A stretch of 64,000 bases of DNA from Nitrospira lenta (GTDB lineage Bacteria > Nitrospirota > Nitrospiria > Nitrospirales > Nitrospiraceae), in the NCBI RefSeq assembly GCF_900403705.1, contig NZ_OUNR01000016.1, positions 124,001 to 188,000 on the forward strand. Direction: 5' to 3'. A program made the position numbers and the translations under genes. Shown piece by piece: positions 1 through 45,130 of this stretch. The notes beneath the pieces were generated by a model. That model did not search any database and was not told the origin of the DNA. It was given only the letters and a program-made list of their open reading frames with translations. How positions within the stretch are numbered: the first letter of the stretch is position 1; every line of letters starts with the position of its first letter.

Positions 1-236
1 ATAGAAATGACCTTCGAGTCGATCCTCGTCACTCGTTCAATGACTTCGAGACCGTTAATATCCGGCAGCTGGAAGTCTGTCACCAGAATCTGAACGGGAC
101 GTTCTTTGACGACTTGGATGCCCGTGGTGGCATCGGCGGCAACTGAAACGGTATAGCCCTCTGCAGACAATGTTTCCTGCAGGACGTCGCGCACCGCTTG
201 GTCGTCGTCAATGACTAAAATATGAGGAGCAGTCAT
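1..236 (-). CDS. Response regulator receiver domain (5' part, runs off left edge)
   Basis: The reverse strand from the ATG at 236 encodes an N-terminal CheY-like receiver domain that leaves the window at base 1. The start reads MTAPHILVIDDDQAVRDVLQ, with the acidic triplet DDD near residues 9-11. A phosphoacceptor-type Asp follows in LVTDFQLPDI at about residue 56. Only 78 codons are visible, so the output domain is unknown. It is transcribed away from the tRNA remnant at 434. The family (two-component signalling) is certain, the pathway unknown. Confidence 0.85.
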   Translation of the reverse strand, partial: MTAPHILVIDDDQAVRDVLQETLSAEGYTVSVAADATTGIQVVKERPVQILVTDFQLPDINGLEVIERVTRIDSKVIS

Positions 237-359
237 CAGATATTTATTCCGCAGCACGGGTAGAAGTTGGCGCATAGAATAAAGATCCTGTGGCATCAAT
301 GCAAGCCTAACAAAGCATCACAGGCTGATTCGCCAATCGCAGGTTTCTCGACCAATTCC

Positions 360-389
360 TTGACAGAATATTTGGGGAGTTGCTAGGGT
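360..389 (+). promoter_or_regulatory. Putative sigma70 promoter of the original tRNA-Thr gene
   Basis: A perfect -35 hexamer TTGACA at 360-365 is followed, after 18 bases, by TAGGGT at 384-389, which keeps the conserved T, A and final T of a -10 box. A GC-rich discriminator (GCGCG) follows, as is common at stable-RNA promoters. The predicted start near 396 lies about 39 bases before the tRNA 5' end at 435. After integration of the element this promoter would drive only the orphan tRNA 5' half. The -10 match is weak. Confidence 0.4.
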
Positions 390-433
390 GCGCGTAGTGG
401 CGAGCCCTGCTGTGCGGCAGGGTATTTCCATGT

Positions 434-471
434 GGCTGGCGTAGCTCAATGGCAGAGCAGCGGTTTTGTAA
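434..471 (+). repeat. Left attachment site: orphan 5' half of tRNA-Thr
   Basis: Bases 434-471 match 7312-7349 without a mismatch and diverge on both sides. The sequence covers tRNA bases 1-37, that is acceptor 5' strand, D arm, anticodon stem 5' strand and the whole anticodon loop, but has no 3' half. It is the left junction left when a tyrosine recombinase crossed over in the anticodon loop. It cannot give a functional tRNA. Confidence 0.9.
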
Positions 472-506
472 GCCTTTCTGATTCATCTACACAACCCCAT
501 GTCGGT

Positions 507-546
507 ACAGCGGAACACCTCTCTCACAGAGGGATTGCGCTGTTTT
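507..546 (+). terminator. Two-tier hairpin with short U tract just inside the left end
   Basis: Outer arms ACAGCG (507-512) and CGCTGT (538-543) enclose inner arms CCTCT (518-522) and AGAGG (528-532), with a symmetric 5/5 internal loop. The outer arm runs into TTTT (543-546). It could terminate transcription of the orphan tRNA half, or it could be an integrase/excisionase arm-site palindrome. The U tract is short, so terminator activity is inferred. Confidence 0.35.
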
Positions 547-690
547 GACTACTCAGTTTTGTTCAGGTGAGCTGGGGCGAATTTAGGTGGTTTTTGGTGT
601 GGAGAGGACATGCCGCGAACACGTAGGGTTTATATGTAGAAAGCGCTGTATGTTCTGTCAGCTCAGCGATGGGATCTAGGCCACATGGAA

Positions 691-870
691 TTAATGCCAC
701 GTTGTCAAGATGTAGATACAAACCAGGAAAACCGCTCAGCAGATCCCTATTGCGATCCAAACCCGTAAGTCTATCCCTTGCCGTTTCTGTTGTTGAGGAA
801 GTAGAGGACGGCCATCGAAGTGGGCCTTTGCTGCTTGAATTATGGCTTTGAGTTGTTCTTTGTCGTCCAT
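691..870 (-). pseudogene. Small membrane-protein reading frame interrupted by in-frame TGA
   Basis: From the ATG at 870 the minus strand encodes a 44-residue peptide beginning MDDKEQLKAIIQAAKAHF and ending LRVWIAIGIC, then TGA (738-736). The same frame continues with AVFLVCIYILTTWH before TAA at 693-691. The two hydrophobic parts together make one normal transmembrane helix, so the TGA splits the helix. It is most simply a decayed gene or a sequence error; recoding of TGA is possible but unsupported. No strong Shine-Dalgarno is seen. Apart from this, bases 547-1005 hold nothing recognisable. Confidence 0.35.
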
Positions 871-1005
871 CTAGATAGTCCCGTAGGGATGTCCGTTTCT
901 CAGACGGTGCAGTATGCTGGGAGCCAGGTCTCCCTGTCCATACCAACAAACTCAAGCGCAACCATGCTTAGGCAGAGTGCCACCTAACGAAGGAGAGCCG
1001 GTAGC

Positions 1006-1383
1006 ATGAGACCAGCGGTAGCCCTCACGTTAATGTTACTGCTCCTGTTAGAAGGATGCACAAGCGTCGGCAGCTACGCCACATCCTTAGGTATCGAGGA
1101 TGCTGCACAAATCAAAGGCGCTGAGGCAGATTACCTAGCAGCGCTAGCTGGGTTTTCGCGGGCTGGGGTGCTCACACCTGAGGAAGCGGAACTCGAATAT
1201 CATTCCGAGCGGATGCGACTTAATGAAGGAACGTGGAGCAAGGCGCGTCTGGAGGGCTATCGGCAAGCTGTCCTTCGCGGGCAACCACGCGTGCATACCT
1301 ACAAACAACAATGTTTCTGGGTAGATGCTAGGAAAGACGTTCGGTGTAAGGGGCAATTATTGATTTCCGGCATTGGCAAGTGA
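1006..1383 (+). CDS. Small predicted lipoprotein of the element
   Basis: This 125-residue protein opens with a basic start, a Leu-rich core (ALTLMLLLLL) and the lipobox LEGC, with Cys18 as the lipidation site. The mature part is hydrophilic and looks helical around residues 30-90 (AAQIKGAEADYLAALAGF). A strong AAGGAG lies 10 bases before the ATG at 1006. It would be anchored in the inner or outer membrane. I do not recognise the family. It is the first convincing gene inside the left end of the tRNA-Thr element; surface lipoproteins on such elements sometimes act in entry exclusion, but nothing here shows that. Confidence 0.75.
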   Translation: MRPAVALTLMLLLLLEGCTSVGSYATSLGIEDAAQIKGAEADYLAALAGFSRAGVLTPEEAELEYHSERMRLNEGTWSKARLEGYRQAVLRGQPRVHTYKQQCFWVDARKDVRCKGQLLISGIGK

Positions 1384-1620
1384 ACCCGCTGACATGGCTG
1401 CTTGAACGAAACGACAGCGCCTAGCTTTGAGAAGAGGAAATAATTCTGAGATAAAAATGTGAGAGCGCATATACAAGGGCATTTTCAATGTAGCTTCCCC
1501 ATGCCGGGTCGTCTTTCTTAGTGGGCCGGTCGGCACTGTGCTGGAGGTCGCACGGCAGTAGGCCGATTGCAGACCGACACGAGCAGGCGTAGAGTTCACC
1601 CACACCACACGAGGCACACC

Positions 1621-1968
1621 ATGAGACGCCTTCTCTTCTACTCCTTCCTTCTCTATCTCATTCCAGCAATCCAGACGCTCCCAGCACACGCTGAACTGGA
1701 CTTATGGGGGCAGCCCTCACAGCTTGGGCCATCCATCCGGGATCAACCGTCTTCCGTTCCTCAGCAGTTCAGGCCGAACGGAAACGCAGGCTATCTGGGG
1801 AGCGACCTGCCGCCCAGCGACTACCAACCCGACGAAGCACTAAGACACCGATACGGAAGCGAGACTGACAGGACTGCCCCAAGCGCACCCCTCGACAACG
1901 GACAATACTCCAGCAGACCTAACCCGTACTGCACTAATGCCGAGTTGTGTGGTGGTTCGACTCAGTAG
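1621..1968 (+). CDS. Small secreted Pro/Ser-rich protein of unknown function
   Basis: Starting at the ATG at 1621, the 115-residue product has a clear signal peptide (MRRLLFYSFLLYLIPAIQ) with an AHA-E cleavage motif near residue 25. The mature region is hydrophilic, rich in Pro, Ser, Gln and Tyr, and holds two cysteines near the C-terminus (PYCTNAELCGG) that could form a disulfide. GAGG lies 8 bases upstream. The frame is open to an ATG at 1567, but that would bury the signal peptide, so 1621 is preferred. No family is recognised. Confidence 0.65.
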   Translation: MRRLLFYSFLLYLIPAIQTLPAHAELDLWGQPSQLGPSIRDQPSSVPQQFRPNGNAGYLGSDLPPSDYQPDEALRHRYGSETDRTAPSAPLDNGQYSSRPNPYCTNAELCGGSTQ

Positions 1969-2043
1969 CCTCTATTTACTTAACCCCTTAAAACCACCTG
2001 AGAAACTTCCTGTGTTTCCGTGCCGGGAAACGGTCTAGTTTAT

Positions 2044-2073
2044 CTATTTACAATACACTTGATTAGTAAATAG
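2044..2073. promoter_or_regulatory. Perfect 8-bp inverted repeat upstream of the resolvase gene
   Basis: CTATTTAC (2044-2051) and GTAAATAG (2066-2073) are exact reverse complements separated by 14 bases, about 50 bases before the resolvase start. The total length and AT-rich arms fit a recombination (res/cross-over) subsite or a repressor operator for the adjacent serine recombinase. Position and symmetry are observed; function is inferred. Confidence 0.45.
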
Positions 2074-2121
2074 CCTCTCTGATACTCTCCCGACCACCAC
2101 ACTTCACCAGGAGGGCACACT

Positions 2122-2724
2122 ATGAAGCGGGTTGCGCTCTACGCCAGAGTCAGCACAGACGGGCAAACCACAGAGAACCAGCTCAGGGAACTCAGAGAGA
2201 CCGCCAAGCGCCACGGCTGGGAGATTACCGGGGAGTTCATTGACCGGGGCATTAGTGGGGCAAAGGGCAAGGAGGGACGGCCACAGTTTAATGCCCTGCA
2301 CACTGCGATAGCACGTAAAGAATGCGACCTGGTAGCCGCCTGGAGTGTGGACCGCCTTGGGAGGAGTCTCAAAGACCTGGTGGACTTCCTTGGGCAGGTG
2401 CATGCGAAGGGCATCGGCCTCTATCTCCATCAGCAGGGCCTCGATACTACCACTCCGGCAGGAAAGGCGTTGTTCGGCATGATGGGCGTCTTTGCGGAGT
2501 TTGAACGGGCGATGATCCAAGAGAGGGTTAAGGCAGGATTGTCGAGAGCGAAGGCCAACGGGACACGCCTTGGAAGGCCTCCTCTCGCTGCTTCTGCCGA
2601 TGGTTTGAAGGTGCAGCGGAGGGTACTGGATCTCCGGAAGAGTGGGCTGGGGATGTGCGCTATTGCGGAGAAGGTCGGCATCAGCTCGCGCACTGTCATG
2701 AAGATTGTTGCAGCGACAGCCTAG
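2122..2724 (+). CDS. Serine recombinase, resolvase/invertase family
   Basis: This 200-residue protein has the small serine recombinase layout. The N-terminal catalytic domain (about 1-135) carries YARVST, with nucleophile Ser11 and Arg9, then DRGISG, the conserved SVDRLGRS and FAEFERAMIQERVKAGL (E-helix). A C-terminal helix-turn-helix (about 165-200, IAEKVGISSRTVMKI) reads DNA. Length matches Tn3-resolvase/Hin enzymes. AGGAGG sits ahead of the ATG. It cuts and rejoins DNA through a phosphoserine link. In this element it could resolve dimers or invert DNA; the inverted repeat at 2044-2073 is a candidate site. Confidence 0.93.
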   Translation: MKRVALYARVSTDGQTTENQLRELRETAKRHGWEITGEFIDRGISGAKGKEGRPQFNALHTAIARKECDLVAAWSVDRLGRSLKDLVDFLGQVHAKGIGLYLHQQGLDTTTPAGKALFGMMGVFAEFERAMIQERVKAGLSRAKANGTRLGRPPLAASADGLKVQRRVLDLRKSGLGMCAIAEKVGISSRTVMKIVAATA

Positions 2725-2860
2725 ACACGTAGAAGTGGCAATACTTCCATGTATGGTAAATACCCGTAGGTGGATGATTAGAATTGTTGCAGGTAACCTG
2801 TGAGGAGCGTACAAGGCTCTCTATGCGGTCGGTTCTTCAACAACTAACTCGGAGGTTGCT

Positions 2861-2983
2861 ATGCTAGTTCGCTTGGGACGCCGGTTTGAATTTCAAGTCA
2901 ATGGGTGCGGCCTATACCTTAAGGCTCCCATTCTCGGTGAAGTCTGGATCGGGAGTGATGGGCAGCGGTACTGGGATAAGTAA
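2861..2983 (+). CDS. 40-residue protein of unknown function
   Basis: A short frame starts at ATG 2861, 6 bases after a clear GGAGG, and ends at TAA 2981-2983. The product starts MLVRLGRRFEFQVNG and ends GSDGQRYWDK, a compact mix of hydrophobic and charged residues resembling one small beta-rich unit. It lies alone between the resolvase and the repeat region. The support is the ribosome binding site and sensible composition; no family is recognised. Confidence 0.45.
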   Translation: MLVRLGRRFEFQVNGCGLYLKAPILGEVWIGSDGQRYWDK

Positions 2984-3314
2984 CCCGCTGTAGTCCTCGC
3001 AGTTCTCTTCCCCTGCCTCTCTCTTCGTTTGCTCCCTTCTCAATAGCCTGTCAGCATTGATAGGCTCCCTCCGGCCAGACCCATCCACTAGTGGGAACAG
3101 CCTCCTTAAGCCTCGGAAGTTCATACCTGTCTGCCTTACCCTGGACTTACAGAGAACCCACCGCTGTGGATTAGGTAGCACTTTAGGGTGTCTGGTCAAG
3201 GCCAAGACAAGCGCCCCCTCTCATGGCGGCTTAACAGATTGTTTTAGTTCAGTGTTTCTGTGAATTAAGCCATTAGGTGCCCCTTACAGAGGAATGAAGC
3301 GGGGAATTACCCGT

Positions 3315-3381
3315 GACTTATGAAGAACAAGCCGCCCATTAACCCCGACTTACAAGAAGAACCGCCATTAAGGCGGACTTA
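3315..3381 (+). repeat. Short imperfect direct repeats (iteron- or operator-like)
   Basis: GACTTA occurs at 3315-3320, 3347-3352 and 3376-3381. CCGCC(C)ATTAA lies between the copies (3332-3342 and 3362-3371), giving units of 29-32 bases. A further GACTTACA-type copy is seen near 3144. The 2984-3487 stretch has no convincing gene. Its repeats lie before a run of DNA-binding genes, so they could be iterons of an origin, ParB/HTH protein sites or transfer-origin repeats. Function is inferred only. Confidence 0.4.
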
Positions 3382-3487
3382 CGACTAACCAGCCCCTCCC
3401 CTCATCCTTCGTTTCATCGCTTGCGTCTCAGCCCCCTGTCTATTATTCGCACGGACCACACCTACCACCCAAAGGAGAACCACCCCT

Positions 3488-3832
3488 ATGCACGATCCCT
3501 TAAACAACCCGGTGACACAGCCGCAACACAACGGGCGATGTGTCCTTCACGTTCGCCATGCAACCGCTGTGCGGAGGCTTCGGACGGATGGCGAATCGGA
3601 GGCCGCCTTGATGTGGTTGAAGTCTGCACTTGCAGGCGAGGCACCAGCCGACAGGCCAAGTATTTCCCTTCTCCTACGTCGCGCTCTCAAACGCTATAGA
3701 GGTCATGTCTCTACCCTCCTCGGAACACCTCAGGGCCTCGAATATGAACGCCTCCTCGTAAGGCAAGGCAGTCGCCTGCCCACACTCCGCAGACCCACCA
3801 AATGCCAAGCGGTGGAAGTTACCCAGTCCTAG
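3488..3832 (+). CDS. Small basic protein of unknown function
   Basis: This 114-residue, strongly basic product starts at ATG 3488, with AAAGGAG 10 bases upstream. A central stretch (about 37-80; EAALMWLKSALAG, SLLLRRALKRYRGHV) looks like two amphipathic helices rich in Arg and Lys, consistent with a small nucleic-acid-binding protein. The C-terminus is Arg/Pro-rich and probably disordered. It sits just after the repeat array at 3315-3381 and ahead of the HTH/ParB-like pair, so a partner role at those repeats is possible. No family is recognised. Confidence 0.55.
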   Translation: MHDPLNNPVTQPQHNGRCVLHVRHATAVRRLRTDGESEAALMWLKSALAGEAPADRPSISLLLRRALKRYRGHVSTLLGTPQGLEYERLLVRQGSRLPTLRRPTKCQAVEVTQS

Positions 3833-3979
3833 CCTAACTGCCCTCCCGGTAATCCTCTTTCTCTGACCTCTCAGCCCGCAATTCAGTAAGGCACCCAGAC
3901 ACCCCTTCCGCTCTTCCTCTATTTGCCCTAAGACGCACGCACACCCTCTAACCCATGCCAGGAGTCGAACCACACCACA

Positions 3980-4180
3980 ATGACCACGCAGAAGCCCCGC
4001 CCCAAAATTCACCCTGATAGAAAACAACAGTTTACACAGTCAGCTCAACACCTCTTCCGCGTGTCTCGGACTGGTACGACGTGGTGTACCTGCGGACGAT
4101 GGACCTTATGGGAGGCTTCGAAGGAATCAGCCAGGAGGTCGCACAACTATCACTTGGAGAATCTCACCCGATGCCGATAG
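3980..4180 (+). CDS. Possible 66-residue small protein (element)
   Basis: A frame from ATG 3980 to TAG 4180 encodes a basic peptide with a Cys-x-Cys and Trp-rich segment (TTWCTCGRWTLWEASKE) followed by SHNYHL, which recalls a small zinc-finger-like unit. AGGAG lies 13 bases upstream, rather far. It overlaps the next gene by 10 bases if that gene starts at 4171, or by 100 if it starts at 4081, so only one of these readings of 4081-4170 is likely right. Bases 3833-3979 contain nothing else recognisable. Confidence 0.4.
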   Translation: MTTQKPRPKIHPDRKQQFTQSAQHLFRVSRTGTTWCTCGRWTLWEASKESARRSHNYHLENLTRCR

Positions 4181-4845
4181 TAAGTCAGGCAGTGGCCCAA
4201 GCGGCCCTGGAGGAGTGCCTACGGAATTGCGCAGAAGGCGAACGAGTTTTCAAAGAGAAGCAGGCCACCACGACAGGCCGAGACCCCTCTCAGCCCTGGC
4301 ACCCGCTCTTCAATCCAAACCCCGAAGAACTTCTAGAAGCCCATATCAGGCACAAGGAGGGGTTAGAACAGAAACCCTTTGGGGAATTATGGGGTGCTGT
4401 GCTGGCTGGGGTGGAGAGTGGGGAGTATCGGTCAGGGAAAGATATCGCTGACAAACTCGGCAAGCCGTACTCCTGGGTCTTGAGGTTGTTGCAAGTTGCC
4501 GTGAAACAGCGACGGTTCACCAGGGAGCAGCTCCGGGCCTACTTTAGGAAACAGCGCATCCAGCACGCCGGGGTCACAGCTCAACGTAGTATCCGAAAAC
4601 CCAACCGAGTGACCCGCGACACATTCGCAGAGGTTTTCATGGCGAAAGACCCCGCGCTGACGTTTGACCTTGTGGTGCGGTTGCTCCGGGTTGGTTGTTG
4701 GAAATGCGTTGGGGACTTCACTACACACTTTGCTCAGTCGAAGAAGTGGGTGCAGGCTTTCAGGCGGCTGCTAATCCGGGAACTGGTGATGAGTGCACAA
4801 GAGTGGAAGGCGTGTTGGAGCGTGGGAAGAAGGAGTAGGCGGTGA
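4171..4845 (+). CDS. HTH DNA-binding protein paired with ParB-like gene
   Basis: From ATG 4171 the product has 224 residues; upstream ATGs at 4081 and 4102 are alternatives. A helix-turn-helix-like segment (SGEYRSGKDIADKLGKPYSW) lies at about residues 81-100. The C-terminal half is rich in aromatic and basic residues (KWVQAFRRLLIREL). The stop overlaps the GTG start of the ParB-like gene by four bases (GTGA), so the two are translationally coupled. This suggests a two-component DNA-binding module of the element. The HTH is judged by eye and no named family is assigned. Confidence 0.7.
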   Translation: MPIVSQAVAQAALEECLRNCAEGERVFKEKQATTTGRDPSQPWHPLFNPNPEELLEAHIRHKEGLEQKPFGELWGAVLAGVESGEYRSGKDIADKLGKPYSWVLRLLQVAVKQRRFTREQLRAYFRKQRIQHAGVTAQRSIRKPNRVTRDTFAEVFMAKDPALTFDLVVRLLRVGCWKCVGDFTTHFAQSKKWVQAFRRLLIRELVMSAQEWKACWSVGRRSRR

Positions 4846-5675
4846 AGCCCAACACTTGGCTTGCCCAATTCAATGCCCTCAAAGGACGCGGCGTTGATAC
4901 CCTTACCGTCAGTGAGCGGGGACTTCGCCGTCTTCCGATTGAGGAGGTTCGCACGCTTGAGGCTGTCTTTCAGCCAAGGCAGCTTGAGGATGCAGCAGCA
5001 AGCGGGAGGCACCTAGGGGAATTGCTCCGGGTGCTCCGCGATCATGCCGCCCTCGACCCTATCGCCGTGATGAAGATTGGTGGAGACTGGTACTGCATAG
5101 ATGGCCATTACAGACTAGAAGCCTATAGGCAAGAGCGGGAGGCTGGAAGCAGGCGTAGCCACCTCCCCGTCAAAGTATTCAGTGGAACTCTAGAGGAGGC
5201 GCTTCGGGCCAGCATCGAAGTGAATGCTCCAGATAAATTGAACCTGACCAAAGAGGACAAGTTAGAAGCTGCATGGCGGCTGGTGGTGTTGGGGCAAGAC
5301 TCCGTGGCACAGATCAGCCACACCTCAACCATTGCCGAGAGAACCGTTCAGCGCATGCGGCGAGGGTTGGAGCAGGCGCGGACGCTGCACCCCTCTCAGC
5401 CGTTTGAGACCTGGACATGGGCCAAGGTCAAGGACCTGCTCCGGGGCGAACTGAAGGAAGTGCAGACCGCATGGCAGGATGCAAAGGCGGGGGAATGGGC
5501 CAAGCAGCTAGCACGGACCTTCAAGGGGCTTCCTTCTGAACACCCGCGTGTATTCGCTAAAGCACTCCTGCGGTACAACGCGGAAACTGCGAAAGCGATT
5601 GCAGAAGAGATCCACCAAGCAACACAACAGGGGAAATTACGGGCTGTCGTGTTTGAGGAAGCGCCGGATTTCTAG
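4842..5675 (+). CDS. ParB/KorB-like DNA-binding protein
   Basis: The 277-residue product starts with GTG at 4842, with AAGGAG upstream inside the previous gene. Residues about 60-110 match a ParB N-terminal (Srx-like) domain: LDPIAVMKIGGDWYCIDGHY, followed by RLEAYRQE. DGHYR stands where chromosomal ParB has the arginine-rich CTP motif. A central HTH (about 150-180, VAQISHTSTIAERTVQRM) fits the ParB/KorB fold. The last 100 residues are unassigned. Family members bind centromere-like or operator repeats. No ParA ATPase is visible in the element, so regulation or DNA processing is as likely as partitioning. Confidence 0.82.
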   Translation: MKPNTWLAQFNALKGRGVDTLTVSERGLRRLPIEEVRTLEAVFQPRQLEDAAASGRHLGELLRVLRDHAALDPIAVMKIGGDWYCIDGHYRLEAYRQEREAGSRRSHLPVKVFSGTLEEALRASIEVNAPDKLNLTKEDKLEAAWRLVVLGQDSVAQISHTSTIAERTVQRMRRGLEQARTLHPSQPFETWTWAKVKDLLRGELKEVQTAWQDAKAGEWAKQLARTFKGLPSEHPRVFAKALLRYNAETAKAIAEEIHQATQQGKLRAVVFEEAPDF

Positions 5676-5899
5676 GCTGGTTGTTGGGGGCGACACACTT
5701 GAGGGGGTGCCAAGTCACCCCTACCCCACCCGCTATGGGTCATGCATAAGCGTGCGAAAGAAGAAGGCCTTCGGGCTACTTCACGCCTTAGAACGAGCGT
5801 GACAGCTTGTCACGTTCATTTCCGGTCAAGAAAACCCTTCAGGACCAGCCGGAAGTCGAGTTCGTCCAGGATCATTCCGTAAACACACAACACATTTTT

Positions 5900-5944
5900 G
5901 AGCGGTCTATCTCTGAGGGGAACCCTCTTGGAGGGAGACCGCTC
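5900..5944 (+). terminator. Branched hairpin before the excisionase gene
   Basis: GAGCGGTCT (5900-5908) pairs exactly with AGACCGCTC (5936-5944). Inside, CCCTC (5923-5927) pairs with GAGGG (5931-5935). TTTCATTTC follows directly, and the AGGAG of the excisionase gene lies within 15 bases. It can be read as an intrinsic terminator insulating xis/int from the ParB-like operon, or as an attenuator. The stretch 5676-5899 contains no gene. Confidence 0.5.
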
Positions 5945-5964
5945 TTTCATTTCATAGGAGACTC

Positions 5965-6153
5965 ATGAGCAGCACATTTTTGACAATGAATGAGGCGGCA
6001 GAGTATCTAGGCGTATCAAAATTGACTCTATATGGGTGGGTCTCCGCACGAAAGCTGACCTTCATAAAGGTTGGGCGTCTTGTGAAATTCAAGCAAGATC
6101 AACTAGACAAGTGGATTGACCTACACACTGTCAAGGCACGAGTAGCCGTATAG
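5965..6153 (+). CDS. Excisionase-type HTH protein (MerR/HTH_17 fold)
   Basis: This 62-residue protein is almost entirely one winged-helix domain of the excisionase family: MNEAAEYLGVSKLTLYGWVS (recognition helix), then IKVGRLVKFKQDQLDKWID (wing and dimer helix). AGGAG precedes the ATG. It lies 20 bases before the integrase gene. Family members bend attachment-site DNA and steer the integrase toward excision, and often repress integrase expression. A general MerR-like regulator is the alternative, but the position makes a recombination directionality factor the better reading. Confidence 0.85.
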   Translation: MSSTFLTMNEAAEYLGVSKLTLYGWVSARKLTFIKVGRLVKFKQDQLDKWIDLHTVKARVAV

Positions 6154-6173
6154 CTGGTGGGAGGGCCGAGAAA

Positions 6174-7283
6174 ATGGGGCTGACCAAGAGACCTGATAGC
6201 TACTATGTGGAGTTCCGGGTGATTGACAGTGCAGACGGAAAGTCTTTGGTGTTGGCGAGTGGTGTACAGGGAGCAAGAAAGAAACGCTGGAAGGTGGGGT
6301 GTCTGAATAAGACCGTTGCCAGGGAAATGGAAGCAGCGATTAAGACGCGCATTCTTCTAGGCCAGGAACAGACCGAACAGGCGAAACCTGTTCTATTCAA
6401 AGAATGGGCAAAAACATACCTCGACATGGAGTCTGTCAAAACATTACGCAGCTATCAGGATCGCGTAGAGATCATGGGCAAGCAATTGATCCCGTTCTTT
6501 GGTGGGAAAATTCTTGGCGAGATCAAGCCCGCCGATGTTGAGACCTATCGAGGGCAACGGAAGAAGCGAAATGGGAGTATGGCCAGCACACAGACAATCA
6601 ACAATGATCATATCGTTTTGAAGCATGCCCTCAATGTGGCCGTTCGGCGAGATCTCCTAGTCAGCAATCCAGCGGCCAGAGTGCCAATGCCCGACCCACA
6701 AAATGCACGTGATCGGGTGTTGAGTGAGGAGGAATGGGGCAAGTTGTATCAGGCAGCAAAACCCCACCTACAACCAGTGCTCCTTCTCGCCTACCAACTC
6801 GGGCAGCGGCTGAGCGAAATCGTTAACCTCACCTGGGACCGCGTAGACTTGAAGCGCGGGTTTGTCACGCTCCGAAGCCAAGACACTAAGACAAAAAAGC
6901 CCCGGCAAGTTCCAATTACTCCAGATGTACGAGGGACGTTACAGCAGCTTGCTAAGTTGCGGAGTTTGGCTACTCGCCATGTCTTCTTGTATCAGGGAGA
7001 ACCGCTGAAGGACTTCAGAACGGCATTCCGCACAGCACTTAAGGACGCCGGTGTAATCGGCTTCAAGTTCCATGACTTGAGGCACTGCGCTGCAACCAAT
7101 CTAAGGCGTGCTGGGGTGGATACTACCACGGCTATGCAGATCGTTGGGCATACCTCCCCGCAGATGTGGAAGCGCTACAATCACATACGGGAGGAAGACT
7201 TGTCCCAGGCAGCAACCAAGCTCGGAAAGTATCTCCAGCAGACCACGCCCAGAACACTTGACGGGCAAGCGGAGAGCAGGTAG
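6174..7283 (+). CDS. int: Tyrosine recombinase (phage-type integrase)
   Basis: This 369-residue integrase has an N-terminal arm-type region, a SAM-like core-binding domain (about 75-170) and the catalytic domain (about 180-345). All catalytic residues are visible: Arg212 (LGQRLSEI), Lys near 239-242, His300 and Arg303 (HDLRH), His326 (VGHTS) and Tyr335 (KRYNHI). It catalyses site-specific recombination between the element and the anticodon-loop region of tRNA-Thr. The gene ends 29 bases before the intact tRNA. Its last codons also hold a good sigma70 promoter that points into the tRNA. Confidence 0.96.
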   Translation: MGLTKRPDSYYVEFRVIDSADGKSLVLASGVQGARKKRWKVGCLNKTVAREMEAAIKTRILLGQEQTEQAKPVLFKEWAKTYLDMESVKTLRSYQDRVEIMGKQLIPFFGGKILGEIKPADVETYRGQRKKRNGSMASTQTINNDHIVLKHALNVAVRRDLLVSNPAARVPMPDPQNARDRVLSEEEWGKLYQAAKPHLQPVLLLAYQLGQRLSEIVNLTWDRVDLKRGFVTLRSQDTKTKKPRQVPITPDVRGTLQQLAKLRSLATRHVFLYQGEPLKDFRTAFRTALKDAGVIGFKFHDLRHCAATNLRRAGVDTTTAMQIVGHTSPQMWKRYNHIREEDLSQAATKLGKYLQQTTPRTLDGQAESR

Positions 7284-7286
7284 AAA
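7258..7286 (+). promoter_or_regulatory. Element-borne promoter reading into tRNA-Thr
   Basis: TTGACG (7258-7263) and TAGAAA (7281-7286) are separated by exactly 17 bases, five of six and four of six matches to sigma70 consensus. The -10 overlaps the integrase stop codon. Predicted transcription would begin near 7293, 20 bases before the mature tRNA. Because integration displaced the original 5' flank, some new promoter must serve the tRNA, and this is the best candidate. Confidence 0.5.
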
Positions 7287-7311
7287 GATAACTCCGCAGA
7301 ATAATTAGATG

Positions 7312-7349
7312 GGCTGGCGTAGCTCAATGGCAGAGCAGCGGTTTTGTAA
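7312..7349 (+). repeat. Right attachment site inside intact tRNA-Thr
   Basis: The 38-base copy is identical to 434-471 and ends at the last base of the anticodon loop. Sequence to its right (7350 onward) is the original chromosomal 3' half of the tRNA gene; sequence to its left belongs to the element. Confidence 0.88.
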
Positions 7350-7387
7350 ACCGCAGGTTGGAGGTTCAATTCCTCTCGCCAGCTCCA
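7313..7387 (+). tRNA. tRNA-Thr (anticodon TGT)
   Basis: A full cloverleaf is visible. The acceptor stem GCTGGCG pairs with CGCCAGC, followed by discriminator T and encoded CCA (7385-7387). The anticodon stem GCGGT/ACCGC encloses the loop TTTGTAA, with TGT at 7345-7347. The T arm is GGAGGTTCAATTCCTC. It reads ACA (and other ACN) codons. The 5' half was supplied by the integrated element. Confidence 0.97.
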
Positions 7388-7501
7388 TATTTCAATCACT
7401 TACCATCTCTATTTCAATCTACCCCCTGCTGAGCATTCGCTGTCGATTCACGGGCTCTAGTCCGCGCGGATGAATCTTCGTCTCATTGCCCTTCGAGGGG
7501 C

Positions 7502-7525
7502 AGCCGACGCGTGAGTGCGTCGGCT
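7502..7525 (+). terminator. Perfect 9-bp hairpin after tRNA-Thr
   Basis: AGCCGACGC (7502-7510) pairs with GCGTCGGCT (7517-7525) around a six-base loop. There is no U tract beyond a short CCGTTCT, so it is a strong structure but not a textbook terminator. The rest of 7388-7782 contains no recognisable gene. Confidence 0.4.
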
Positions 7526-7782
7526 CCGTTCTGCCATACCGTCTTATCTCCCATGTCCGCCAGAGTGGCAGCGTAACAGGGTAAGCACCTAATTGCTCAC
7601 CGCCTTGATGGCACAATCTCTGCCCGCGCAAAAGTCCGTCGACGTACACGCTATTTCTCTAGTGAGCTTGGCATGGTTATCCACTCGTTGCCTCGGCTAG
7701 ATCCGAAATCAGACCTTCATCTCCTAGCCTCTTGCGATGAGATCTTGGCACGGTGCCACATTAGCGATTGCGTAAGCCCTTC

Positions 7783-8637
7783 ATGGGCAGTACGTTAAAG
7801 AAAGACTTCATGGCTGGTTACATTCGGAGCGACTCGCGCAGCGAGTGGAAAGAAGGTGCCGTCACGACTCAGAAACACACCACGCAAGCGCGCGGACCGA
7901 TAATCGATGCGGTTACGCTCGACTCACGCTCGGTCGATCCGGGGCACGATCAGAACCGACTTGACCGCAGCCGCGAAGAACTGCGCATGCTGACCGGTAA
8001 ACTGCTCACGGTTCAGGATGAAGAACGCCGCAGAATCTCGCGTGATTTGCATGACGACGTGAATCAGCGCTTAGGCGCCATCGGGCTTCAATTGGACTCG
8101 TTGTGCCGGCATCTGCCGGCCTCTTCGACGCTCATTCGCCGCAGAATCGGCGCGATCCGCCGCCACGTCAGCCGGCTCTCGGACGATGTCCGCCAGCTGG
8201 CCTACCGGTTCCACGAAACGACCGTCGAAGACCTCGGTCTGGCGGTGGCACTCCAGCGATACCTTCATGACTTCGTCAAACGCACGGGCATCAAAGCCAA
8301 ATTTATCAAACCGCATTCTGCCATGCCGATCCCGCCGCAGTTGGCTACCTGCCTGTATCGAATTGCCCAGGAGAGCTTGGGAAATGTCGGCCTGCATGCC
8401 CAGGCATCCCAAGTGACCATTCAACTGGCCCTGCTCCCTGACGCAGTCTCGTTAACGATTCGCGATAACGGAGTCGGCATGAATCCCGACGATGTTCAAA
8501 GCCGCACGGGAGGATTGGGCATCCTGAGCATGCAGGAACGCGCCCGCCTCCTCAATGGATCGGTGGAGTGGCATTCGACCACGGGAGCGGGTACGGACGT
8601 TGTCGCGCACCTGCCGTACCCGGTTGAGGCGCCATGA
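7783..8637 (+). CDS. NarL-type sensor histidine kinase, cytoplasmic
   Basis: The kinase core is of the HisKA_3/HATPase type. The H box is RRRISRDLHDDVNQRL, with the phosphorylated His in DLHDD. The N box is ATCLYRIAQESLGNVGLHA, and the G boxes are DNGVGM and GGLGILSMQERARLLNGS. No transmembrane or PAS domain is visible in the roughly 80 residues before the H box, so the signal is probably sensed in the cytoplasm or through a partner. The start is uncertain (TTG 7768, ATG 7783, ATG 7810; none with a strong ribosome site). The stop overlaps the regulator start at 8634 by ATGA, so the two genes are coupled. Confidence 0.92.
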   Translation: MGSTLKKDFMAGYIRSDSRSEWKEGAVTTQKHTTQARGPIIDAVTLDSRSVDPGHDQNRLDRSREELRMLTGKLLTVQDEERRRISRDLHDDVNQRLGAIGLQLDSLCRHLPASSTLIRRRIGAIRRHVSRLSDDVRQLAYRFHETTVEDLGLAVALQRYLHDFVKRTGIKAKFIKPHSAMPIPPQLATCLYRIAQESLGNVGLHAQASQVTIQLALLPDAVSLTIRDNGVGMNPDDVQSRTGGLGILSMQERARLLNGSVEWHSTTGAGTDVVAHLPYPVEAP

Positions 8638-9275
8638 CAAAGCCAAGAATTCTGCTCGCCGATGACCACACCATGTTCGTGGAGGCGTTGCACAAAGTGT
8701 TAGAGCCGGAATTTGATCTAGTGGGGTCGGTCGGAGATGGACGCGCCCTGCTCGAGGCCGCTCCTCGTTTGAAACCGGACGTCATTCTGCTCGATCTGTC
8801 GATGCCCTTGCTGAACGGAATCGATGCGGCGCAGCAACTCCGTCAGAGCCTGCCCTCCGTGAAAGTGGTGTTCCTCAGCATGCACGGGGATCCCACGTAT
8901 GTCACAGAAGCCTTTCGCGCCGGCGCGTCCGGGTATGTGCTCAAACGCGCGAGCGCGACCGAGCTGATTCAGGCGATCCGCATCGCGCTGCGCGGCCATC
9001 TCTACATGTCGCCCCTGCTGGCCAAGGGCGTCTTAGATCCCTTGCTGCATCATCGCCCGTCGCCATCGAGCGCACAAGCGACCCTTACGCTCCGGCAACG
9101 CGAGGTCCTGCAGCTTGTGGCCGAAGGCCGGTCTCTCAAGGAAATCGCCTCCATTCTGTGCGTGTCTGCCAAAACCGTTGAGTTTCACAAGACGCGCATC
9201 AGCAAGCAACTTGGCCTACACACGACCGCCGATCTCACGAAGTACGCCGTCACGCACGGATTAGTCTCGCCCTAG
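8634..9275 (+). CDS. NarL/FixJ-family response regulator
   Basis: This 213-residue protein pairs a receiver with a LuxR-type HTH. The receiver has the acidic pair Asp10-Asp11 (LLADDH), phosphoacceptor Asp54 (VILLDLSMP) and conserved Lys in GYVLKRAS. The HTH spans about 150-205 (LTLRQREVLQLVAEGRSLKE, then ASILCVSAKTVEFHKTRI). It is the evident target of the kinase encoded directly upstream, with which it overlaps by four bases. Regulated genes are unknown; the divergent regulator at 9630 and the small envelope genes beyond are candidates by position only. Confidence 0.95.
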   Translation: MTKPRILLADDHTMFVEALHKVLEPEFDLVGSVGDGRALLEAAPRLKPDVILLDLSMPLLNGIDAAQQLRQSLPSVKVVFLSMHGDPTYVTEAFRAGASGYVLKRASATELIQAIRIALRGHLYMSPLLAKGVLDPLLHHRPSPSSAQATLTLRQREVLQLVAEGRSLKEIASILCVSAKTVEFHKTRISKQLGLHTTADLTKYAVTHGLVSP

Positions 9276-42930: not shown

Positions 42931-44349
42931 TTATCGATCGGCTTCCATCAGAGTCGACTCATCTTCCATTTCTTCGATATCAGCCTCGATCTTCCCCTTC
43001 GTGGTCGAGGGGTGCAATCCATATTTCCGCAACATTTTATAGAAGTCCGCCCGATACCGGCCGGCGAACTGGGCCGCGCGGGAGATGTTCCCGCCGGTCA
43101 ATTGGAGGACATTCTTCAGATACGTCCGCTCGAACTCTTCCTTCGCCTCTGTCAGTGGTTTCAGCGGCGTATCGGGAGACACCCCGACGGACGGCAGGAG
43201 ATCCGGCGTAATCATATCCTGGCGGGTCATCACCACCGCTTTCTCAATCGCGTTTTCCAATTCACGCACATTTCCCGGCCAGGGATTCACCATCAACCGG
43301 TGCAGCGCCGTCGGTGTAAAGCCACGGACATCTTTATTCGCCCGCTGGTTACTGATTTTCAGGAAATGCTGCGCGAGCAATGGAATATCGTCGCGACGGT
43401 CGCGCAACGGCGGAATAAAAAGCGGCACCACGGAAATCCGGTAATACAGATCGTTGCGGAAGCTGCCGTTCTTGACCGCCTCGCCGAGATCTTTGTTCGT
43501 CGCAGCAATGATGCGCACGTCAATTTTGGTCGAGAGCTCAGATCCGACTTCGCGGACCTCCCGCTCTTGAACCGCGCGGAGAAGCTTCACCTGCATCGAG
43601 AGCGGCATTTCACCGATCTCATCCAGGAAAATCGTCCCGCCGTTGGCGCTCTGAAAGAGTCCTTTTTTAGCGCCGTGCGCGCTGGTAAAGGCTCCGCGCA
43701 CATGCCCAAAGAGTTCGCTTTCGAATAACGCTTCAGGAATGGCGGCGCAATTTAACGCGACAAAAGGCCCTTTGCTTCGGCGGCTGTTGGTGTGCGCCAC
43801 CCGGGCCATCACTTCTTTCCCAGTACCGGTTTCGCCAAAGAGCAGAATCGTGGCATCGGAATCCGCCACTTGGGCGATCTGCTGAAAGAGCCGCTGCATG
43901 GCCGGACTCCGCGCGACGACGTTTTCAAGTCCGTAGAGCTCTTTGACCAAAGACTTGAGCCGTTGAATTTCCTTGCTCATGCGCTGTTGCGACAGAGCCT
44001 TTTCGATCGTGGCTTTTAGCTCTTTGTCGTCGAATGGTTTCGTCAGATATCCGAAGGCTCCGCGCTGCATCGCTTCGACGGCATTTGGAATGCTGCCGTG
44101 CGCGGTCAGAATAATCACCGGCAACTGCGGATGAATCCGCAGCAGTTCCTCCGTCACATCCAGACCGTCTTCCCCGTGCAGTCGCAAGTCCGTCACGGCT
44201 AGATCGAACATCTTCTTTTTCGCCTCCACCAGAGCTTCGTGCCCGGTGGTGCATGAGGTCACGGCAAATCCCTCTGCGGAGAGTCGCATCTTCAATAGAT
44301 GCAACAATCCTTCATCGTCATCGACTACTAAGATTTGTTCCTTGTCCAT
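42931..44349 (-). CDS. glrR: Sigma54-dependent response regulator (GlrR/QseF-like)
   Basis: From ATG 44349 (AAGGAG just before) 472 residues: receiver with Asp10-Asp11-Asp12 and phosphoacceptor Asp54 (AVTDLRLHGEDG), AAA+ domain with Walker A GETGTGKE and Walker B GGTIFLDEIGEMP, arginine finger region, and C-terminal Fis-type HTH (GGNISRAAQFAGRYRADFY). The sigma54-contact loop reads GAFTSA instead of GAFTGA. Gene order with a lipoprotein and a kinase matches the enterobacterial glrK-qseG-glrR operon. Targets are unknown; no sigma54 promoter was found nearby. Confidence 0.93.
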   Translation of the reverse strand: MDKEQILVVDDDEGLLHLLKMRLSAEGFAVTSCTTGHEALVEAKKKMFDLAVTDLRLHGEDGLDVTEELLRIHPQLPVIILTAHGSIPNAVEAMQRGAFGYLTKPFDDKELKATIEKALSQQRMSKEIQRLKSLVKELYGLENVVARSPAMQRLFQQIAQVADSDATILLFGETGTGKEVMARVAHTNSRRSKGPFVALNCAAIPEALFESELFGHVRGAFTSAHGAKKGLFQSANGGTIFLDEIGEMPLSMQVKLLRAVQEREVREVGSELSTKIDVRIIAATNKDLGEAVKNGSFRNDLYYRISVVPLFIPPLRDRRDDIPLLAQHFLKISNQRANKDVRGFTPTALHRLMVNPWPGNVRELENAIEKAVVMTRQDMITPDLLPSVGVSPDTPLKPLTEAKEEFERTYLKNVLQLTGGNISRAAQFAGRYRADFYKMLRKYGLHPSTTKGKIEADIEEMEDESTLMEADR

Positions 44350-44356
44350 AGGCTCC

Positions 44357-45130
44357 TTACTGCGCAGGTGCGGGTTCTGTCGCGGGGACAGGCGCATTCG
44401 CTGATGGCGGACGAATCGGTCGAACCTTCTCGCGCATCTCCTGATCGATCCGCTTCAGCGCCTCCAACTGGCTAGAAAGTTCTTCGATCTTCTTATCCCG
44501 TTCTATGACTTGTTTCTGAAATGTTTGAACTGAGCCTTGCTCGGATGCCGTTTTCAGGCCGTCCTTGTCCTTCTTCGATGTCAATATCTCGATCTTTCGC
44601 TCCTGGTCGGCAATCTGCCGTTGCAGCGCCTCAATCGCTTGCGCATCGGCCTCCTTCATCCCACGAAGTTGCTGCATAATCACTTCACGGTCAAGCAAGT
44701 CCCGCACCAGGCGGTCTGTCGCATGATTTAATGAGCTATTCGCATCAGCCACGGCAGGAGCCGTCAACACCGCCTGCACCCACGATGGATCCTTAGAGCC
44801 ATTCGAATCCTGCAGCAATTTCAGCCACGCTTTACTGGAGGCCGCTAACTGGCTCTTGGGTGCAACGGCGAGAACCTTTCCAAAATATTTTTCAGCAACT
44901 TCGCGGCTTTCGTACAGTCCTAAGAGGCCCCGAGTAAAATAGGCGTGGTCGCACGAAGTCGTTTCGTTGCATTTCTGCACGATGGCATCTTGCTTCTTTG
45001 CAAGTGTCTGATAGAGCTTAGATTCTGCTGAATCAACGTGGAAAAATGGTTGATTCAGCGGCAATGGCGAAGTCCAGCTCGCACATCCGCTGACCACAAT
45101 AGGAATAATCCACAATACGGCACTCTTCAT
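44357..45130 (-). CDS. QseG/YfhG-like lipoprotein with coiled coil
   Basis: ATG 45130 gives 257 residues: a signal with lipobox VSGC, then LPLNQPFFHVDSAESKLYQT, a helical domain (about 30-130) and a long coiled coil (about 150-235, IEALQRQIADQERKIEILTS). The Pro/Ala-rich tail is disordered. It sits between kinase and regulator genes exactly where QseG lies in the glrK-qseG-glrR operon; in enterobacteria QseG is an outer-membrane lipoprotein that activates the kinase. Similar function is inferred from position and architecture. Start could also be GTG 45136. Confidence 0.72.
   Translation of the reverse strand: MKSAVLWIIPIVVSGCASWTSPLPLNQPFFHVDSAESKLYQTLAKKQDAIVQKCNETTSCDHAYFTRGLLGLYESREVAEKYFGKVLAVAPKSQLAASSKAWLKLLQDSNGSKDPSWVQAVLTAPAVADANSSLNHATDRLVRDLLDREVIMQQLRGMKEADAQAIEALQRQIADQERKIEILTSKKDKDGLKTASEQGSVQTFQKQVIERDKKIEELSSQLEALKRIDQEMREKVRPIRPPSANAPVPATEPAPAQ

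Follow-up and report, generated by a model that had tools for sequence, protein, structure and literature searches.

A stretch of 64,000 nucleotides (nt) of the Nitrospira lenta genome (contig NZ_OUNR01000016.1, positions 124,001 to 188,000, hereafter the window) contains near its left end an integrated element of about 6.9 kb, which has almost certainly parted the gene of tRNA-Thr(UGU) from its native promoter. From comparison of the sequences we furthermore consider it probable, at roughly 0.84, that the main source of this tRNA is now a promoter borne by the element itself and situated in the last codons of its integrase gene.

The intact tRNA-Thr(UGU), as delimited by ARAGORN, spans 7313-7387 on the plus strand with the anticodon at 7345-7347 and the anticodon loop at 7343-7349, and part of it is found a second time upstream in the same orientation, positions 434-471 being identical to 7312-7349 over 38 nt without mismatch and starting one base ahead of the mature tRNA. 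The last identical base, 7349, closes the anticodon loop, and the two copies first differ (G/A) at the base right after it, although the repeat can be extended to 434-474 and 7312-7352 at 98% over 41 nt. It is the longest direct repeat within positions 1-9000, where the runner-up families reach 16-19 nt at 74-88% identity. The copy at 434-471 (plus strand) comprises the tRNA half only and represents the displaced 5' half at the left junction (attL), while 7312-7349 (plus strand) is the element-borne 5' half (attR), 7350-7387 (plus strand) is the 3' half of the intact tRNA, and the element proper, for which a strand is not applicable, occupies 472-7311, bounded by the repeat and missing from relatives with an empty site. 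An intact tRNA at one end and a matching fragment at the other is the arrangement of tRNA-gene islands, and a displaced piece that is the 5' part, lies upstream and has its block of identity ending in the anticodon loop is that of islands with a 5' fragment. The 38-nt identity and the ARAGORN boundaries thereby bear out the original prediction, made from this DNA alone, that the repeat covers only the 5' half of the tRNA and stops at the end of the anticodon loop.

Empty sites were found in eight relatives (genomes G047, G052, G064, G072, G084, G085, G086 and G087; loci L079, L081-L084 and L086-L088), in which a sequence 76-90% identical to the left flank of the window leads directly into an intact tRNA-Thr(UGU). 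In all eight, TTGACA-18-TAGGGT-GCGC lies upstream of the tRNA, and the same sequence is present in the window at 360-389 on the plus strand (-35 TTGACA at 360-365, an 18-nt spacer, -10 TAGGGT at 384-389, then GCGC), intact beside the displaced half and 6.9 kb from the working tRNA. Since the native promoter is upstream of the tRNA in the empty sites but beside the displaced half in the window, we can conclude that the element parted the tRNA from its promoter, and this separation is, together with the geometry of the element, close to certain. The earlier claim that the original promoter is now some 7 kb away is thus in agreement with its position beside attL and its conservation in the empty sites. 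An empty site in which 7312-7387 and the sequence upstream of it are unchanged was also searched for, and none was found, as all eight have host flank and native promoter upstream of the tRNA and not the sequence at 7284-7311.

The putative element-borne promoter is found at 7258-7286 on the plus strand and consists of TTGACG at 7258-7263, a 17-nt spacer and TAGAAA at 7281-7286, the -10 starting on the integrase stop codon TAG at 7281-7283. It is present just as originally described, even though a generic promoter scan, which demands a final T that is absent from TAGAAA, did not list it. The further claim that the integrase gene would carry the promoter of the tRNA is strengthened by the fact that the hexamers and their 17-nt spacing are kept in all related Thr-UGU elements read, TTGAC(C/G)-17-TARRA preceding the intact tRNA in 18 of the genomes searched and in one further record. 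When scored against shuffles with a sigma-70 measure, which is rough and to be taken as a yardstick only, the element tails reach a mean z of 1.8-1.9 and the native promoters 2.4, as compared to 0.1 for the equivalent position of elements on the 3' side of their tRNA (3'-type). It should be mentioned, however, that several observations weigh against a local promoter as the main source. Of the 12 consensus bases the window promoter has 9, and its score is below those of the native promoters. The sequences compared are moreover akin, so that the conservation statistics are not independent. In addition, AACAC repeats just upstream of it are also conserved and resemble integrase arm sites, which could in part explain why the sequence around the -35 is conserved, although not why the -10 is. 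Finally, no recognisable sigma-70 promoter was found in the 5'-type elements, located on the 5' side of their tRNA, at Arg-UCU and Pro-UGG (mean z -0.3 and 0.0). These two cases rule out an element-borne promoter common to all 5'-type elements, and since they show nothing comparable to the tail promoter, a local promoter is not a general need of the 5'-type architecture and other solutions, for instance readthrough, must exist for them.

The course of events that we propose is that a small integrative Nitrospira element, driven by its tyrosine integrase, would recombine in the anticodon loop of tRNA-Thr(UGU), oriented so that its integrase gene ends at the tRNA's 5' side, and that its attachment site would bring along a copy of the 5' half. 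The integrated state would then have a working tRNA composed of the element's 5' half and the old 3' half, while the native promoter would stay 6.9 kb upstream with the native 5' half, and a sigma-70-type promoter in the last integrase codons, its -10 on the stop codon, would take over from the lost one. We infer that transcription of the tRNA starts at about 7293 and is enough for the cell, that the crossover falls within the anticodon loop, and that the element is still able to excise.

Readthrough could also account for the supply in the window itself, if the tRNA mostly derives from the promoter of the integrase (or of excisionase and integrase) and TTGACG/TAGAAA is incidental or of minor effect. 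The integrase and the tRNA are indeed co-directional and separated by only the 30 nt that follow the integrase stop codon, with no terminator found between them, the Arg-UCU and Pro-UGG elements of like architecture are without a clear local promoter, and a precedent exists in the pTN3-like archaeal integrations (PMC8371274). This explanation nonetheless seems unlikely, since in 11 of the 18 genomes with the tail promoter the integrase at tRNA-Thr(UGU) has been deleted or broken while its tail is kept (G005, G017, G018, G041, G042, G044, G057, G081, G082, G089 and G092), with both hexamers at 17 nt still directly upstream of the tRNA. In these 11 integrase-less sequences the hexamer columns have a mean entropy of 0.24 versus 0.77-0.86 in spacer and flanks, with a column permutation p of about 1e-4 that is optimistic, the sequences being related. 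Furthermore, a second and only distantly related integrase type at tRNA-Thr(UGU), found in five genomes (G006, G016, G039, G060 and G080), likewise has TTGACA-17/18-TTARTTT upstream of the tRNA.

The notion that the conserved tail is attachment-site DNA, that is integrase arm sites kept for recombination with the likeness to a promoter as a by-product, stems from the observation that 3'-type relatives, which need no promoter, share both the AACAC blocks of the integrase tail and the TAAGTnnTTGAAA motif close to the tRNA, but it is a little less probable still. The hexamer pair is absent from the 3'-type elements, and hexamers and spacing are unchanged even where the tail has diverged, at loci L017 and L093/L120. 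In addition, a displaced 5' half was looked for in the 11 integrase-less genomes and none was found in nine of them, G018 and G092 being the exceptions. Because both integrase and displaced 5' half are gone, the element is beyond excision in these nine genomes, and yet TTGAC-17-TARRA is kept, so that the tail is not kept for mobility. That the repeat is merely a chance likeness or a tandem tRNA remnant and no integration junction, in favour of which only the small size of the element can be cited, is contradicted by the 38 identical nt, their exact end at the anticodon loop, the abutting integrase, the eight empty-site relatives and the like architecture at other tRNAs, and can safely be dismissed.

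The element-borne promoter, which we accordingly prefer as the probable source of the tRNA, belongs to a pattern that extends through the genus. Among the 56 Nitrospira genomes read, many of which are metagenome assemblies, the sequence upstream of the intact and apparently single-copy tRNA-Thr(UGU) is native in 32, where it takes three forms, and element-derived in 24, namely the 18 of the first type, the five of the second type and G022, which has another integrase remnant. In G022 (locus L060) about 7.8 kb separate the left host flank from the tRNA, the integrase remnant (37% over its last 84 amino acids) lies 54 nt upstream of the tRNA, and a displaced 5' half was looked for but not found. 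In two genomes, G003 and G011, element-type sequence also precedes the displaced half, and the promoter has therefore been replaced twice. The native promoters are followed by a GC-rich stretch (GCGC, GCGA or CCC), whereas the element promoters are followed by AT-rich sequence. A GC-rich stretch after the -10 is linked to stringent control, and since the new promoters lack it, the tRNA may escape growth-rate (stringent) control. It is thus conceivable, if still somewhat doubtful, that the control of tRNA-Thr(UGU) has been rewritten again and again by elements of two or more integrase families (24 of 56 genomes, some twice, and nine fixed after integrase and other junction were lost) and that the tRNA may have left stringent control, the changed growth control being a prediction only.

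In a tree of 56 integrases the integrase of the window falls in a clade of 23 members with a Shimodaira-Hasegawa-like approximate likelihood ratio test (SH-aLRT) support of 100, all of which lie on the 5' side of their tRNA and are co-directional with it, those 67-80% identical to that of the window being found upstream of Thr-UGU, Arg-CCU or Arg-UCU tRNAs. The close relatives of the clade (at Thr-CGU, Lys and Leu tRNAs) are convergent on the 3' side, while more distant integrases are found on the 5' side at Pro-UGG, Gly-CCC and Ser-UGA and on the 3' side at Thr-CGU, Thr-UGU, Leu, Lys, Phe, Val and Asp, and the side of the tRNA switches at least 2-3 times within the integrase family. A broken integrase copy of 69% identity (L167), which was left out of the tree, is on the 3' side of Arg-CCU. 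In both the 5'- and the 3'-type class TAAGTnnTTGAAA is found near the tRNA, about equally far from the anticodon loop, and we infer that one recombination complex may act in either direction on the near-symmetrical anticodon stem-loop. In other 5'-type cases the displaced 5' halves comprise tRNA positions 1 to 40-42 and lie upstream at 24 kb (G017), 27.5 kb (G012), 32 kb (G018), 77 kb (G080), 87 kb (G059), 103 kb (G042) and 117 kb (G081). Integrations of distant relatives on the 5' side, at Ser-UGA (in candidate division FCPU426), Gly-CCC and Pro-UGG (loci L199, L204, L170, L171, L173, L174, L176, L178 and L185), have no obvious local promoter.

The right side of the tRNA appears to be occupied as well. 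In G064 and G022 the tRNA is directly adjoined by a host gene whose counterpart lies at window positions 42931-44402, and the approximately 35.5 kb that precede this gene on the right-hand side (7388-42930), missing from the locus in these two genomes, are therefore also extra. Open reading frames (ORFs) read by eye in this region form a glycogen/trehalose-like cluster with several alpha-amylase-family proteins, a glgC-like gene and a maltokinase-like gene. An arm-like motif of 3'-type elements, GGTAAGTGATTGAAATA, is found at 7388-7411 on the minus strand, starting at the base beside the tRNA 3' end (TAAGTGNTTGAA occurs once in the whole window), and has the same place in the 3'-type elements L051-L053 and L058. 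A partial repeat, GGTAGATTGAAATA, follows GGTAAGTGATTGAAATA within 7388-7430. We take the motif at 7388-7430 as a sign of an older 3'-type element whose integrase is gone, so that the tRNA is probably wedged between a 5'-type element and an old 3'-type element. Candidates for a displaced 3' half or an integrase remnant of this right-hand island were sought and none was found, nor is there an integrase in 7388-42930. Three other genomes, G061, G076 and G004 (L032, L070 and L077), have an integrase on each side of tRNA-Thr(UGU), both pointing at the tRNA, one of each pair being 5'-type and the other 3'-type from a different integrase group, and both tRNA halves appear to be element-borne in them.

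The clear genes inside the 6.9-kb element are nearly all on the plus strand, and those assigned, all on this strand, encode a serine recombinase of the resolvase/invertase kind (2122-2724; PF00239, E=4e-45), a ParB-like protein (4842-5675; phrog_1033, E=5e-8), a small helix-turn-helix protein that is likely an excisionase (5965-6153; PF12728, E=7e-13; phrog_66 'excisionase and transcriptional regulator', E=3e-10) and a full-length tyrosine integrase (6174-7283; PF00589, E=1e-28). Residues R212, K239, H300, R303, H326 and Y335 of the latter, which we take to be the catalytic set of tyrosine recombinases, are invariant across the family. A phage identity of the element is not supported by IMG/VR, where one close match was found (71%, L217, with no tRNA on its short contig) and the others are distant. 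The left arm of the element beside the crossover (472-580, strand not applicable) has homologous counterparts in other 5'-type elements, the block TTGTCAGAACAG...CGGAGTTTGGCTGTTTTG being common to L061, L065, L067 and L247-L252. The stranded native promoter at 360-389 points into the element, and a transcript of the 5' tRNA half running on towards the first genes of the element (ORF at 1006-1383) is predicted. A hairpin at 501-549 (z -3.7) was considered as a terminator shielding the element from this promoter, but this fold is absent from the homologous left ends, for most of which z lies between -1.8 and +0.8, and the hairpin is therefore read as part of the attachment arm.

Transfer RNA genes are regarded as safe places for integration, as host promoter and tRNA usually remain joined. 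The present family of elements departs from this rule and would compensate by a promoter folded into the integrase gene, and since this promoter has outlived the integrase in several species, a housekeeping tRNA appears to be run from a captured mobile-element promoter. The natural series of empty, occupied, decayed and twice replaced sites is suited to asking what degree of promoter change can be tolerated by a tRNA gene, and likewise whether the growth control of tRNA supply is lost.

An architecture that restores the 5' half is known but rare. The Islander collection counts 159 islands with a 5' tRNA-gene (tDNA) fragment among 3,919, the remaining 3,760 being of the other class (PMC4383910), in agreement with the earlier statement that most islands restore the 3' half. 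The 5'-fragment class shares with the present element a tyrosine-integrase island, a displaced 5' fragment, a gene rebuilt with the island's own 5' part and an attachment site (attP) centred on the anticodon, but it was counted without study of later tRNA transcription, whereas integrase clade and promoter have been traced here. A rebuilt bacterial tRNA has been stated in a review to retain its original promoter with very few exceptions (PMC8371274), and in archaeal pTN3-like integrations the tRNA is said to be expressed from the integrase promoter (PMC8371274, PMC5495485). In the pTN3/TKV4-type integrations in tRNA-Leu the tRNA is likewise rebuilt and parted from its original promoter, but these are archaeal and split the integrase gene on integration, while here the integrase is whole and the promoter lies in its 3' end. 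Islands in dusA, such as IMEVchUSA3, and SXT in prfC similarly integrate into the 5' part of a host gene, to which they supply a new promoter, as shown for dusA by lacZ fusion, in which the output was below that of the native promoter (PMC8409611), and in the present case too the native promoter is parted from the target gene. Their targets are however protein-coding and acquire a changed N-terminus, whereas an RNA gene is here restored with its sequence unchanged. The tRNA-dependent lysogeny of actinobacteriophages (PMC10865867) also lets an element take over the supply of an essential tRNA from its own promoter, but the host tRNA is destroyed and a complete tRNA gene brought in, as opposed to only half a gene here. 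In the literature searched we did not find a clade-wide integrase-tail promoter, retention after integrase loss, serial replacement or two-sided occupation of a tRNA described, and the first two of these, a tail promoter common to the clade and kept when the integrase is lost, are what is new in comparison to these systems.

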